Below, piece after piece: positions 1,364 through 24,777 of a stretch of 55,663 bases of DNA. The DNA is from a virus. Under the pieces are notes generated by a model, which was not told the origin of the DNA, made no database searches, and saw nothing but the letters and a program-made list of their open reading frames with translations. Each line of letters opens with the position of its first letter. Position 1 is the stretch's first letter. The stretch spans positions 1 to 55,663 of IMG/VR virus record IMGVR_UViG_3300044984_002647. One strand, given 5' to 3'. The translations under genes were made by a program, and so were the position numbers.

Positions 1364-4300
1364 ATGTCTAATTACACAGTATTTACAAATATAATAAGTG
1401 GAAGCGAGGCAGAGATAGCTTCGATCACAGGTTCATTGAGTGGAACTGCGTCATATTCAATTACTGCAAGTTATGCGTTGAGTTATAGTGGCACAAGCGG
1501 AACTTCGGGTACCAATGGAACAAGCGGCACCAACGGGTCGTCCGGTACTTCCGGAACAAACGGGTCGAGTGGAACATCTGGTACGAATGGAACTTCGGGT
1601 ACCAATGGGACAAGTGGTACCAACGGTTCGAGTGGAACATCTGGTACGAATGGAACTTCCGGCACCAACGGAACGAGCGGCACCAATGGTTCAAGTGGCA
1701 CGTCCGGCACCAACGGTACGTCGGGTACAAACGGTTCGAGCGGCACAAGTGGCACAAACGGTACGTCGGGTACAAACGGTTCAAGTGGCACGTCCGGCAC
1801 CAACGGTACGTCGGGTACAAACGGTTCGAGCGGCACGTCCGGCACCAACGGTACGTCGGGTACAAACGGTTCGAGCGGCACGTCCGGCACCAACGGAACG
1901 AGCGGCACCAATGGTTCAAGTGGAACGTCGGGTACGAATGGAACAAGCGGAACCTCTGGCACAAACGGTTCAAGTGGCACGTCCGGCACAAACGGTTCAA
2001 GTGGCACGTCCGGCACAAACGGTTCAAGTGGCACGTCCGGCACAAACGGTTCAAGTGGCACGTCCGGCACAAACGGTTCAAGTGGCACGTCCGGCACCAA
2101 CGGAACGAGCGGCACCAATGGTTCAAGTGGAACGTCGGGTACGAATGGAACAAGTGGAACCTCTGGCACAAACGGTTCAAGTGGAACATCTGGCACAAAC
2201 GGTTCAAGTGGAACATCTGGTGCAGGATTTACAACAATCAATAGCCCAAGCATAGGACGAGTAATATTGTCTGACGGCTCGGTTAATGCTGCCACCGCAT
2301 CAGCAAATTTGATTTATTCAGATAATGTATTTACAATCACGGGAAGTATTTTGGCTAATGGTGGTGTCACAGCATCTTTGTTTGGTACGAGCAGTTATGC
2401 TATTCAAGCATTAAGTTCTTCATATGCTACAACAGCATCACTTGCATTTGATACAAATATAAGAATAACAGACACGCTATTTGTTGATCCAGTAAATGGT
2501 AATGACTCAACGGCCAAATCGGGAAGTTTACAGTATACATACAGATCTATTGCTGCCGCTGAAAGTGCTGGTGCAGTGAGTCAATCTATATATCTTTTAA
2601 ATGGTGTAGCAACAGCCTCGGGATTGATTAAGTCGTTGAACTATTATCTATCAGAAGGATCAACATTAAAACTAAATCCTTCTAGTGCAGTTCCATTGTT
2701 TTATCTTACTGGCTCAAGTGCCAGTACACTAATTCAAATAAAAGTATCTGGTCCCGGTACGATTGACGCAACAATTAACTACGCTCCGGCAAGTTCAAGA
2801 GCAACTTTGATAGGAATGTATTCCAACGGAGTCAACGGATCAACTATTTCTGGCGGATCTTATATCAATATTGATGTATATAAGATTATTGCCGGTATGG
2901 ACAGTACTAATTACAACAGTAGTGCATGTGCAATAGATATTGAAGGATCAAACTATAGCATAGGAGCAACAATCAATGCCCATACTTTTGTTTTGAATAA
3001 AGGCTTGACTGGAGTTTCATACCTAGGTGCTCCGCTCGTGAAAGGAATTGGTTTTGCAAATTATTGCAATGTCAATATAGAACAGGCGTTTTTCAGTTCA
3101 AATGGTATAGTTAAAAGTACTGTGTCAAGTGGTGGAAGAACGGTAATAAACATAAGCCAACTTGTAGATTCTGACATGTTTACTATGATTGTTGCTGATC
3201 CTGCTGGTGCCAATATATCGTTGTCCATAGAAAATGCAATAAATTCAAGCGTTGTTACACCAATTATTGCAAAAAATGGTGGTGGAAATATATACTTAAA
3301 ACTTCCTAGAGATTATAGCATCGTTCAGACAAATAACAATCAACCATATGGAATGTGGCTTGATATAAATGGAACAGTTGCGCTGGAAGGTATGTTTAAC
3401 TTCGATACAGTTTCTCAATACGATTCAAGTCCCGTGTTAATAACGGGAAGCAATGCGTCCAATGTCATTTTTAGAAATTCGTACATTGGGAGGCTTATTT
3501 CAACTGGATCAAGTCCTGTAATATATTTCGGTTCAGGAACAAGCAACAAAACTCTTACACTTCAAGATTGCCATATCTATTCCACAGGAAGTACATATTC
3601 AATCGACGCGGCCCAATCACAAAATGTAACATTGATGGGCGGCAGAACAACCAGCACATATCAATTTGGTCCAAATATAAACGTTGTTGATGCAGCATAT
3701 ACACATGGATCATCTTCATATGCACTAACTGCAAGTTATGCTTTGAATGGTGGTGGTGGTAGCGGTACCAATGGCACAAGCGGAACGTCGGGTACCAATG
3801 GCACAAGCGGAACGAATGGCACAAGCGGAACGAATGGCACCAACGGTTCGAGTGGAACGTCTGGTACGAATGGGTCGTCGGGAACGTCTGGCACAAATGG
3901 AACAAGCGGTACCAACGGTTCGAGTGGAACGTCTGGTACCAATGGCACGAGCGGCACCAATGGGTCGTCGGGAACGTCTGGCACAAATGGAACAAGCGGT
4001 ACCAACGGTTCGAGTGGAACGTCTGGTACGAATGGAACTTCTGGTACCAATGGGTCAAGTGGTACAAGCGGTACCAACGGTTCGAGTGGAACGTCTGGTA
4101 CCAATGGCACGAGCGGCACCAATGGGTCGTCGGGAACGTCTGGCACAAATGGAACAAGCGGTACCAACGGTTCGAGTGGAACGTCTGGGACAAACGGGTC
4201 GTCCGGAACCTCGGGTACCAACGGAACAAGCGGCACGAATGGTTCGTCCGGTACATCTGGAACAAACGGGTCAAGTGGAACATCTGGTACCAATGGGTCA

Positions 4301-4912
4301 AGTGGTACAAGCGGTACCAACGGTTCGAGTGGAACGTCCGGTACCAATGGCACGAGCGGCACCAATGGGTCGTCGGGAACGTCTGGCACAAACGGAACAA
4401 GCGGTACCAACGGTTCGAGTGGAACTTCTGGTTCAAGTGGCACAAACGGTTCATCCGGAACTTCCGGGACAAACGGTTCGAGTGGAACGTCTGGTACCAA
4501 TGGCACGAGCGGCACCAATGGGTCGTCGGGAACGTCCGGCACAAACGGAACAAGTGGAACGAATGGCACAAGCGGCACGAACGGCTCATCGGGAACTTCT
4601 GGTTCAAGTGGCACAAACGGTTCATCCGGAACTTCCGGGACAAACGGGTCAAGTGGAACATCCGGGACAATTCCTGCCGGAACAGTTTCAAGCAGTGCTC
4701 AATTAAGTAATGGTGGTGGCACAGCGTTCGACAGTTCAAACGATGTCACATTTGGAAGCGTAACTGCTTCTCTTGGTCTTCTTGGTACATCTTCATATTC
4801 TATTACTGCTTCATATGCTTTGAATGGTGGTGGAGGCGGTGGAGGAACTACTGGTATAACATCTCAACAAGTTTTAGCACTATTTATAGCATATCCAAAC
4901 AGAATGATTTGA
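1364..4912 (+). CDS. Collagen-like tail fibre with beta-helix domain
   Basis: This 1182-aa protein has two long blocks of Gly-X-Y triplets (GTS, GTN, GSS) at residues ~43-288 and ~797-1101. Between them lies a domain of about 430 residues starting near residue 365. It contains VDPVNGNDSTAKSG and regularly spaced short hydrophobic strands, which suggests a right-handed beta-helix of the pectin-lyase type. 'TASYA' segments flank the triplet blocks at residues ~28-40, ~345-362 and ~1140-1155. Collagen-like triplets in phage fibres are known to trimerise as rods; here X and Y are almost only Ser, Thr and Asn, with no Pro. There is no SD site before the ATG. Stop is TGA, so TGA is a normal stop here. 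Role: long fibre or spike shaft with a central, possibly glycan-binding module. Fibre role is likely; enzymatic activity is unproven. Confidence 0.8.
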   Translation: MSNYTVFTNIISGSEAEIASITGSLSGTASYSITASYALSYSGTSGTSGTNGTSGTNGSSGTSGTNGSSGTSGTNGTSGTNGTSGTNGSSGTSGTNGTSGTNGTSGTNGSSGTSGTNGTSGTNGSSGTSGTNGTSGTNGSSGTSGTNGTSGTNGSSGTSGTNGTSGTNGSSGTSGTNGTSGTNGSSGTSGTNGTSGTSGTNGSSGTSGTNGSSGTSGTNGSSGTSGTNGSSGTSGTNGSSGTSGTNGTSGTNGSSGTSGTNGTSGTSGTNGSSGTSGTNGSSGTSGAGFTTINSPSIGRVILSDGSVNAATASANLIYSDNVFTITGSILANGGVTASLFGTSSYAIQALSSSYATTASLAFDTNIRITDTLFVDPVNGNDSTAKSGSLQYTYRSIAAAESAGAVSQSIYLLNGVATASGLIKSLNYYLSEGSTLKLNPSSAVPLFYLTGSSASTLIQIKVSGPGTIDATINYAPASSRATLIGMYSNGVNGSTISGGSYINIDVYKIIAGMDSTNYNSSACAIDIEGSNYSIGATINAHTFVLNKGLTGVSYLGAPLVKGIGFANYCNVNIEQAFFSSNGIVKSTVSSGGRTVINISQLVDSDMFTMIVADPAGANISLSIENAINSSVVTPIIAKNGGGNIYLKLPRDYSIVQTNNNQPYGMWLDINGTVALEGMFNFDTVSQYDSSPVLITGSNASNVIFRNSYIGRLISTGSSPVIYFGSGTSNKTLTLQDCHIYSTGSTYSIDAAQSQNVTLMGGRTTSTYQFGPNINVVDAAYTHGSSSYALTASYALNGGGGSGTNGTSGTSGTNGTSGTNGTSGTNGTNGSSGTSGTNGSSGTSGTNGTSGTNGSSGTSGTNGTSGTNGSSGTSGTNGTSGTNGSSGTSGTNGTSGTNGSSGTSGTNGSSGTSGTNGTSGTNGSSGTSGTNGTSGTNGSSGTSGTNGSSGTSGTNGTSGTNGSSGTSGTNGSSGTSGTNGSSGTSGTNGSSGTSGTNGTSGTNGSSGTSGTNGTSGTNGSSGTSGSSGTNGSSGTSGTNGSSGTSGTNGTSGTNGSSGTSGTNGTSGTNGTSGTNGSSGTSGSSGTNGSSGTSGTNGSSGTSGTIPAGTVSSSAQLSNGGGTAFDSSNDVTFGSVTASLGLLGTSSYSITASYALNGGGGGGGTTGITSQQVLALFIAYPNRMI
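1490..2226 (+). repeat. Collagen-like coding tandem repeat, block 1
   Basis: Tandem 9-nt units encode Gly-Thr/Ser-Ser/Asn triplets. Larger near-identical units, such as the one encoding GTNGSSGTSG, recur many times around 1970-2090. The DNA copies are close enough to recombine or slip in frame. Confidence 0.9.
3752..4669 (+). repeat. Collagen-like coding tandem repeat, block 2
   Basis: This second array of Gly-X-Y codons is longer than block 1 and is likewise built of repeated multi-triplet cassettes; for example, the segment near 3903-3960 recurs near 4060-4110 and 4150-4190. It is preceded by a GGGGSG linker and followed by a 'SSSAQLSNGGGTAF' tail. Its similarity to block 1 offers a substrate for recombination that could remove the central domain. 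Confidence 0.9.
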
Positions 4913-23945: not shown

Positions 23946-23970
23946 TATAATAAGAAGAATAAGTTTCAAG

Positions 23971-23996
23971 TCCCCTATGAAAATAGGGGATTTTTT
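23971..23996 (+). terminator. Rho-independent terminator after tail tube
   Basis: An 8-bp stem (tcccctat / atagggga) is capped by a GAAA tetraloop and followed by TTTTTT. It isolates the tube gene from the release-factor gene. Confidence 0.9.
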
Positions 23997-23997
23997 A

Positions 23998-24027
23998 TTG
24001 ACATATACAAAATTATCCGCATACTTA
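23998..24027 (+). promoter_or_regulatory. Candidate promoter of release-factor gene
   Basis: TTGACA at 23998-24003 is followed after 18 nt by TACTTA (24022-24027), a poor -10. It lies immediately after the tube terminator and just before the ATG at 24036, so a transcript from it would have almost no leader. The perfect -35 makes it worth listing; confidence is low because the -10 is weak. Confidence 0.35.
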
Positions 24028-24035
24028 TATTCGCT

Positions 24036-24777
24036 ATGAAGACACAAACAACATATTACTCGAATAACTCGGGCAACCCATCGGGAGGCTCTGCTAGCTC
24101 TTGGGGGTCACTTTGACGCGAGAGGTGTGTTGGTTGAAGTAATTTCTGGCGAGGGCGGGGATGATTCAAAATTATTCACCGAGCAACTGTTCATAGCTTA
24201 TCTGGCGTTCATGGAAAAAAATGGACTGGAAGCTGAGTTGGAAGAAACCGGACCCAGCAAATTCAGTTTTGTGTGTTCGGATATGAAAGCTGAATCTTTG
24301 TTTGATTCCGAGACTGGGACGCATTGTGTACAACGCATTCCAAAGAACGACCGAGGTGGTAGGAAACATACATCTTACGTTGCCGTGACCGTAACGAGGT
24401 TACTGCAACAGAACAATGAAATGAAGGAATCTGATTTGGAAGAATCATTCCAACGAGGACATGGAAACGGTGGACAACACCAGAACAAAACGTCAAGTGC
24501 AGTGCGACTGAAACACATCCCAACTGGGTTGGAAGTTTTCATTAACGGACGAAGTCAGCAAGCCAATCGAAGAACTGCCAGACTGTGTTTGGCGGGTAAA
24601 ATAAAGCAGTTTTCGTCCAAGTCGGGTAATTCTACTAATTATAGCGGCGCTGGTCGCGGAGATAAGGTCCGCACATACAACTATGCTGATAACCGAATTA
24701 CTGACCACAGAAATGGAGCTAAGTGTCACATGATAGACAGTGTTATGAAAGAAGGAAGATTTGAACTTTTACGCTAA
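24036..24777 (+). CDS. Class-I release factor homologue with RF2-type +1 frameshift
   Basis: Read as join(24036-24113, 24115-24777), 246 aa. An ATG at 24036 opens a 26-codon frame ending ...W-G-S-L at CTT TGA; the +1 frame continues as D-A-R-G-V-L-V-E-V-ISGEGGDDSK without stop to 24777. GVLVEVISGEGGDD matches the start of release-factor domain 2, HCVQRIPKNDRGGRKHTS the codon-recognition region, GHGNGGQHQNK the GGQ peptidyl-hydrolysis loop (residues 145-147), and 'TYNYADNRITDHR' the RF1-type C-terminus. Domain 1 is essentially absent, as in short PrfH-like homologues. The tripeptide position reads PKN rather than PxT or SPF. The body frame alone has only a GTG at 24127 with no SD, which would truncate domain 2. 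Role: peptide release or ribosome rescue during infection, probably autoregulated. Confidence 0.85.
24103..24117 (+). promoter_or_regulatory. RF2-type programmed +1 frameshift signal
   Basis: The sequence GGGGG-TCA-CTT-TGA-C places an internal SD-like G-run exactly three bases before the slippery CTT codon and the in-frame TGA followed by C. E. coli prfB has GGGGG-TAT-CTT-TGA-C with identical spacing. Established mechanism: slow UGA decoding when release factor is scarce lets tRNA-Leu slip from CUU to UUU. Here slippage joins the 26-codon leader to the GGQ-containing frame. Confidence 0.88.

Follow-up and report, generated by a model that had tools for sequence, protein, structure and literature searches.

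A release-factor gene interrupted by a stop codon

The window, by which we mean the whole 55.7-kb stretch of DNA analysed (IMG/VR virus record IMGVR_UViG_3300044984_002647), carries tail sheath, ribonucleotide reductase, RecA-like and DnaB-like genes. At 24036-24777 it also encodes a short release factor whose reading frame is divided by a TGA, here called the gate. The features of the locus are listed below, where L006 is a diverged relative of the gene.

23968..23993, + strand: terminator-like hairpin with an 11-pair stem and a T tail, between the gene and the upstream tail-tube gene (consensus match only)
23998..24025, + strand: sigma-70-like promoter, TTGACA, 16 nt, CATACT, directly before the leader ATG (consensus match only)
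24036..24116, + strand: leader ORF of 26 codons, closed by the gate stop, a TGA at 24114-24116; read from the sequence, with a related leader in L006
24070..24092, + strand: 23-nt leader block identical in L006, containing GGGAGG
24103..24107, + strand: GGGGG, a putative internal Shine-Dalgarno-like stimulator 3 nt before CTT; read from the sequence, kept in L006 and backed by family statistics
24111..24117, + strand: slip site CTT-TGA-C (the gate), with the C at 24117; read from the sequence, CTT-TGA kept in L006
24115..24777, + strand: release-factor body of 220 aa, read in +1 and limited to domains 2-4 (PCRF and RF-1)
24340..24348, + strand: tripeptide PKN, aligned with PxT of RF1 and SPF of RF2 and following an RF1-type Q
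24469..24477, + strand: GGQ catalytic motif, present in 136 of 136 clusters of the clade described below

From the ATG at 24036 the leader reads MKTQTTYYSNNSGNPSGGSASSWGSL up to its stop, the DNA at the gate running TGG GGG TCA CTT TGA C, and in the +1 frame 220 open codons extend from 24115 to a TAA at 24775-24777. An initial annotation had proposed just this arrangement, an ATG at 24036 with 26 codons, GGGGG-TCA-CTT-TGA-C and a GGQ release-factor body in the +1 frame, and we confirmed it position by position. The likeness to prfB that it drew also holds: a Shine-Dalgarno-like run 3 nt before CTT is followed by TGA and C, with the body in +1. The prfB site turns low RF2 into more RF2, and its arrangement of Shine-Dalgarno run and CTT responds to release-factor level. 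In bacterial prfB, as described in the excerpts of PMC12421855 used here, the G-rich run, the 3-nt spacer, CTT, the premature TGA and the C are the same, and the rest of a class-I release factor likewise follows in +1. The gate stop is codon 27 of the window gene, and the premature stop is codon 26 in E. coli prfB (PMC5009743, in part).

The pattern GGGGGNNNCTTTGAC was found once in the whole window, at the gate, against an expectation of 0.01 from shuffled sequence (1 of 100 shuffles matched); CTTTGA alone is frequent, occurring at 31 places on both strands. Folding of the leader RNA revealed nothing beyond chance, with z-scores of -1.43 for the window and -0.29 for L006 and values near 0 for 75-76-nt pieces around the site. 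This is the only gate in the gene, which has no pairing of a readthrough stop with a frameshift stop.

The gene stands alone: before it come the hairpin and the promoter-like site, after it small ORFs. The preceding gene matches a tail tube family. The promoter-like site agrees with the consensus at 10 of 12 positions and would give a very short 5' UTR, and TTGACA likewise lies 35 nt before the ATG in L006, again as a consensus match only. Among 49 likely genes of the window, 43 end in TAA, 6 in TGA and none in TAG (automatic gene call: TAA 0.84, TGA 0.16, TAG 0). Shine-Dalgarno sequences are missing from most window genes, which counts against a gate that depends on one.

The encoded protein is closest to RF1

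Pfam matched the body to PCRF (2.5e-17) and RF-1 (4.6e-21). The protein proved RF1-like rather than RF2-like: NCBIfam scores were 161.8 bits for prfA, 119.6 for prfB and 62.5 for prfH, and sequence matches in the PDB ranked likewise (RF1 3.4e-33, RF2 7e-22, RF-H 9e-11). All three NCBIfam scores fall under the family cut-offs (prfA 161.8 against 400; prfH 62.5 against 166.65). Domain 1 is absent, PCRF being matched only from profile position 98 on. An AlphaFold2 model of the 220-aa body (pLDDT 85.2, pTM 0.78) tied between domains 2-4 of RF2 (Z 23.9) and RF1 (Z 23.5).

Roles are known for the specificity tripeptide, PxT in RF1 and SPF in RF2, and for Q181. The PKN of the window factor is neither. 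By sequence, the window factor is RF1-type, not RF2. It shares with bacterial RF1 (prfA) the best-scoring family, the RF1-type Q, the GGQ and the fold of domains 2-4, but differs in lacking domain 1, in having PKN instead of PxT and in its stop gate. PrfH is a class-I release-factor relative without domain 1, and the RF-H chains in the PDB, at 203-231 aa, resemble the window factor in this; the match to PrfH is, however, much weaker (62.5 bits), and the body model reaches only Z 10.6-12.2 at 14% identity, far behind RF1 and RF2. The factor has the bacterial RF1/RF2 fold and sequence and no homology to eRF1.

Conservation of the gate in relatives

The segment 24036-24777 is identical in 5 further IMG/VR contigs. 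L006, at 77% amino acid identity, has the site GGGGG AGT CTT TGA G behind a related leader that ends in GNPSGGS.S.WGSL and a stop. The G-run, its spacing and CTT-TGA are thus all kept, while the serine codon of the spacer has changed from TCA to AGT; the C that the initial annotation included in the site is present in the window, but the base after TGA is G in L006. L006 is the only diverged relative with the window's own leader gate, and most of the clade is gated elsewhere. The window's gate belongs to those located in a leader, and the domain-2 position gated in relatives consists of sense codons (NGLE) in the window factor. A search of viral contigs with the DNA pattern GGGGGTCACTTTGACGC returned 15 stretches, 5 of which are the contigs of L002-L005 and L007; the other 10 were rejected as release-factor gates, there being no release factor behind the site.

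Gates across a clade of phage release factors

We assembled release-factor loci from searches of viral contigs with the body and from three alignment scans, each taken as its best 80 loci, added 5 huge-phage genes, and classed the loci by reading frame. The scans used patterns downstream of the gates, so that gates were not selected for, although the seed alignments came from gated genes. A tblastn search of a phage collection matched 72 records, of which 9 were taken: L025-L029, the huge-phage genes of the clade, entered the census, and L030-L033, which have domain 1, were used for comparison. Three of the latter (L031, L032 and L033, from the unverified 'phage' records MT835701, MT835815 and OR844990) look cellular and are probably bacterial contamination. 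Left out were 20 phage fragments, 13 phage-side genes with domain 1, and L112, L122 and L131, whose N terminus is not resolvable. Among slips the census looked for CTTT only, and the rows of L039, L050, L060, L163, L167 and L178 and the first site of L040 were set by hand from printed frames.

The census held 141 short phage factors in 136 clusters (90% amino acid identity), and internal stops interrupt 131 of the 136; in the loci of one scan (A1) taken alone, 46 of 48 clusters are gated. Slip sites of the +1 type occur in 98 clusters (102 sites: TGA 70, TAG 29, TAA 3) and in-frame stops in 35, instead of or besides slip sites (49 stops: TGA 44, TAG 5). By class, 92 clusters have one slip site, 4 have two, 19 have one in-frame stop, 14 have two, and 2 have an in-frame stop followed by a slip site, which makes 20 clusters with tandem gates. 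TAA is rare as a gate (3 of 151 gate stops), and the base after the stop is C in 72 of the 102 slip sites. Like the window factor, other members of the clade score closest to RF1; the tripeptide is PPT in 105 of 136 clusters and the RF1-type Q is present in 126. A search of 51 phage records, in many cases fragments, gave exactly one RF-1-domain match per record.

With CTTT as the slip criterion, neither slip site nor in-frame stop was found in 5 of the 136 clusters (L042, L044, L210, L215 and L224). In L042, counted as ungated, the leader ends GTG TTA GTT TGA A at about 2480-2500 before a +1 body, and GTT-TGA-A could be a poor slip site of a non-CTT kind.

All frame changes inside the HMM, in 84 of 84 unique genes, are +1. 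In junctions located automatically, separately from the census, the P codon is CTT in 79 of 80; the exception, L252, also has CTTTAG downstream. Most slip sites lie inside domain 2, behind a Shine-Dalgarno-like run, typically as CGG AGG GGT CTT TGA G or CGG AGG TGT CTT TAG C. The 71 gates at HMM position ~38, after the first domain-2 helix, share a single alignment column, and within 8 columns of it no gap interrupts the alignment of the +1 product to the 4 ungated relatives used as reference. Predicted pairing with the 16S tail averaged -7.41 kcal/mol at the 102 slip sites compared to -2.55 at 1566 other leucine codons of the same genes, and 75% of slip sites but 11% of the other codons reached -6 or lower. 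The 10 slip sites at HMM position 44 or beyond differ, with a mean of -0.19 and only one at -4 or lower. Six loci (L086, L092, L095, L098, L099 and L253) have Cys-CTT-TAG-C gates at HMM ~54 with little or no Shine-Dalgarno-like run, near the places where relatives have in-frame TGA or TAG.

Tandem gates take several forms. Two consecutive +1 slip sites stand in one leader in L025 (~2880-3010; TAA and TGA), L040 (TAG and TGA), L045 (TGA and TGA) and L055 (TAG and TAG), and the last two have the full AGGGGG at both sites. Gates that mix the two stops occur as UAG then UGA in L040 and as UGA then UAG in L063, L064, L242 and L252.

The identity of the gate stop follows neither protein motif nor, more than weakly, genome. 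Factors that share a tripeptide have UGA gates in some cases and UAG gates in others, and we found no association between gate stop (TGA or TAG) and tripeptide (PxT or PxN; Fisher p 0.38). The median share of TGA among a phage's own gene stops was 0.73 (13 records) against 0.61 (12 records), a comparison whose p of 0.036 ignores common descent.

Bacterial controls and tree

As controls we took the best 80 unique release-factor loci of bacteria from the A1 query and scored them in the body region. None of these 80 had a frame change there, and a single one had an in-frame stop, a TGA in a Mycoplasmataceae genome; in mycoplasmas TGA is read as tryptophan. When the upstream place was checked after body scoring, the classic prfB site, CTTTRAC, was present in 25 of the 80 (TGA 21, TAA 4, TAG 0), at a distance of about 300-330 nt from the body, and these loci were taken as RF2-type. 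The test therefore detects known sites, and the use of TAG by the phages stands out. L315 and L329 have an isolated CTTT-stop, and L350 and L377 a second one, which lies off the classic place or is without its context. Five RF1 genes (L306, L330, L335 and L336 of Patescibacteria MAGs, L307 of the MAG of an unnamed bacterium) seemingly lack domain 1, and no gate was seen in them.

In a quick tree of 179 rows (LG+G4; the label 'bacterial RF1' also covers RF2-like rows), the phage factors form one side of a branch with SH-aLRT 98. Mapped on this tree, the state of the gate (slip, readthrough or none) changes at least 16 times and the identity of the slip stop at least 19 times, as if the gate were kept while its form drifts.

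Explanations of the interrupted frame

The in-frame stops lie at HMM positions 37-39, 44, 46-48 and 51-52 (47 stops), with two more in leaders. Passage by readthrough is apparently their simplest reading from the sequences. Recoding as their cause was rejected, the sampled phages reading as standard code. That TGA (or TAG) is a sense codon in these phages is extremely improbable, although in-frame TGA or TAG in the release-factor gene of 35 of 136 clusters would fit it, as would G008, which has two in-frame TGA in that gene and used only TAA in its 28 called genes. Against such reassignment, genes called with the standard code cover 67-94% of the sequence in 41 of 41 records sampled, the window among them; standard-code ORFs in these records reach 3182 aa; terminase or helicase matches, available for 9 of the 23 records of the in-frame-stop class, have no internal stop; and TGA and TAG share the same position in the release-factor gene. 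Most of the 41 records end genes with TGA as well as with TAG; TAG was not seen in this role in G010, W03 and the window, nor TGA in G045. An ARAGORN scan of about 40 kb of each record (20 kb for G039, 55.7 kb for the window) found a suppressor-type anticodon in 1 of 41, and suppressor tRNAs may lie in other parts of these genomes. That record, G025 (L396-L397), is a phage with a TGA gate, and its CTA-anticodon tRNA is a possible amber suppressor.

An assembly error or a pseudogene is hardly credible for the window gene. All sequences come from metagenomic contigs, which would favour it, but a sequencing indel at 24114 is contradicted by the 5 identical contigs and by the conservation of the site at 77% amino acid identity, and the direction of the shift and the slip codon are uniform across the clade. 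Initiation downstream of the gate, for example at GTG 24127, would leave the leader as a separate short ORF; this GTG is in frame in the window as body codon 5. In L006, however, the first ATG, GTG or TTG of the body frame is codon 20, beyond the first domain-2 strand and the conserved GEGG, so a downstream start could not yield a whole domain 2. In 71 clusters, moreover, the gate is inside domain 2, and the conserved protein thus needs both frames. We regard a working factor made by downstream initiation as very unlikely.

A gate that would respond to failing termination

With moderate confidence, we favour a termination-failure gate on a phage RF1-type factor. Ribosomes would start at 24036 and translate 26 codons, which would place CTT in the P site and UGA in the A site with GGGGG held by the 16S anti-Shine-Dalgarno. 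They would then either terminate or, if no release factor arrived in time, slip +1 from CUU to UUU, and the slipped ribosomes would make the factor. Slow termination at UGA would in this way be converted into phage release factor. In favour of this reading are the gate kept in L006, the uniform +1 direction and CTT codon, the Shine-Dalgarno pairing, the 131 gated clusters, the bacterial controls, the tree, the standard code of the sampled phages and the release-factor fold. Weighing against it are the PKN that matches neither tripeptide, the missing association of gate stop with tripeptide, the 5 clusters lacking a gate, the poor pairing of the sites at position 44 or beyond, the presence of the window's leader gate in a single diverged relative and the unremarkable fold of the leader RNA. 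Slippage in the host, its response to release-factor level, the sensing of the host and the codon range of the factor are inferred.

The initial annotation read the site as the same feedback put to use by the phage for its own release factor. One part of this stands: a prfB-type slip site lies on a phage release factor, in L006 as well and, placed elsewhere, in most of the clade. The other does not fit, since the factor is closest to RF1, which according to the excerpts of PMC12421855 reads UAA and UAG but not UGA. A UGA gate on an RF1-like factor closes no obvious loop, which counts against the reading favoured here as well. Because the factor is RF1-like, its UGA gate would report host RF2 and not its own product, unless PKN has changed its specificity; what a UAG gate would sense is RF1 or the product of the gene. 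The feedback reading is also too narrow for a clade that has UAG gates, tandem gates and in-frame stops. The window would be one case of a clade-wide design with one or two gates, UGA or UAG and rarely UAA, and the data suggest that gated phage release factors are made only when normal termination falters. The factor probably serves as a backup for times, such as the late phase of infection, when the host's capacity to terminate is insufficient.

That UGA and UAG replace each other on factors sharing a tripeptide, that TAA is hardly used and that some tandem gates mix their stops fits a general sensor of failing termination better than strict product feedback. Tentatively, and short of calling it probable, we propose that the stops are exchangeable sensors that make the RF1-type factors of the clade conditional on termination failure, with UGA reading host RF2, UAG reading RF1 and mixed tandems acting as coincidence detectors. 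Mixed tandem gates would then open only when both host factors are short, UAG gates would do for RF1 what autoregulation does for prfB, a counterpart unreported from bacteria, and the phage design would be convergent with that of Mimivirus eRF1.

Two other readings of the gate deserve weighing. If the phage factor itself read UGA, with its PKN and without domain 1, its own level would set slippage in a closed loop like that of prfB. The anatomy of the site is the same as in prfB, PKN is not the RF1 consensus and most slip sites of the clade are UGA gates (70 of 102), yet the sequence is RF1-type overall, the RF1-type Q is kept in 126 of 136 clusters, and factors with UAG gates can have the same motif, the gate stop tracking no obvious change in specificity; we consider such closed autoregulation unlikely. 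Leaky stops could alternatively hold a potentially toxic factor at a low dose, insensitive to the state of termination. The weakness of the stops (TAA in 3 of 151; C after the stop in 72 of 102 slip sites) and the sites at position 44 and beyond, mostly without a Shine-Dalgarno run, would suit this, and RF2 overexpression is toxic according to the excerpts of PMC12421855. A weak promoter or start would suffice for such an end, though, and lineages changed the form of the gate instead of losing it; the Shine-Dalgarno-CTT arrangement, besides, is the one that responds to release-factor level in prfB. A static limiter of dosage is in our judgement doubtful.

Relation to known systems

The closest precedents for the phage gate are bacterial prfB and Mimivirus eRF1. 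Among 8,164 bacterial prfB sites summarized in PMC12421855, the stop is TGA in 98.6%, TAA in 1.4% and TAG in none, compared to 29 TAG among the 102 slip stops of the phage clade; the excerpted text also describes prfA as having no conserved frameshift site. The phage system further differs from prfB in that the window protein is RF1-like and lacks domain 1, most gates of the clade are inside domain 2 and some are tandem.

In Mimivirus R726 and Megavirus mg280 (Jeudy et al. 2012, PMC3521657, in part), a class-I release-factor gene of a virus likewise carries two stops, a UGA-C that is read through and a +1 shift at CUU-UAG-C or CUU-UAA-C; readthrough and the CUU-UAG-C frameshift were shown there for Mimivirus eRF1 expressed in E. 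coli. L242 and L252 match the stop order of Mimivirus eRF1, an in-frame TGA and then CTT-TAG-C. That protein, however, is of eukaryotic/archaeal type, belongs to amoeba viruses and is unrelated in sequence to RF1, and the window has a single UGA slip gate.

In the portions of PMC5009743 available, in-frame UGA readthrough in RF2 genes, or a UAG/RF1 counterpart, is described as not known in bacteria, an amoeba giant virus being the exception named; the excerpt of PMC8073009 states that there are no known reports of RF1 autoregulation. The portion of PMC7162821 drawn on reports that huge phages encode RF1 and RF2 and has no occurrence of 'frameshift'. Our search of one open-access library found no phage release factor (or RF1) with such a gate. 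The initial annotation knew of no phage gene under this control, with which the search agrees, but the Mimivirus and Megavirus eRF1 genes are a close viral precedent. The interpretation accordingly moves from RF2 feedback to a stop gate on an RF1-type factor, and widens to a design common to a large phage clade.

If correct, the gate would be a direct feedback from host termination capacity to a phage translation gene, would supply the RF1/UAG counterpart of prfB control that the excerpts of PMC5009743 and PMC8073009 call unknown or unreported, and would mean that two-stop designs of a similar kind arose independently in the giant viruses of bacteria and of amoebae. A gene caller with no model of slippage or readthrough would be expected to split or truncate gated release-factor genes, and phage release-factor repertoires may therefore be under-counted. 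The natural gates, which vary in position, stop, +4 base, Shine-Dalgarno strength and mode, are a test set for stop leakiness.

Two further observations were made. Directly upstream of the release-factor gene in L039, L048, L061 and L062 we noted sequence resembling a tRNA 3' end. In the window itself, 1364-4912 encodes a probable fibre or tail protein of 1182 aa, with seven matches to the collagen triple-helix repeat.
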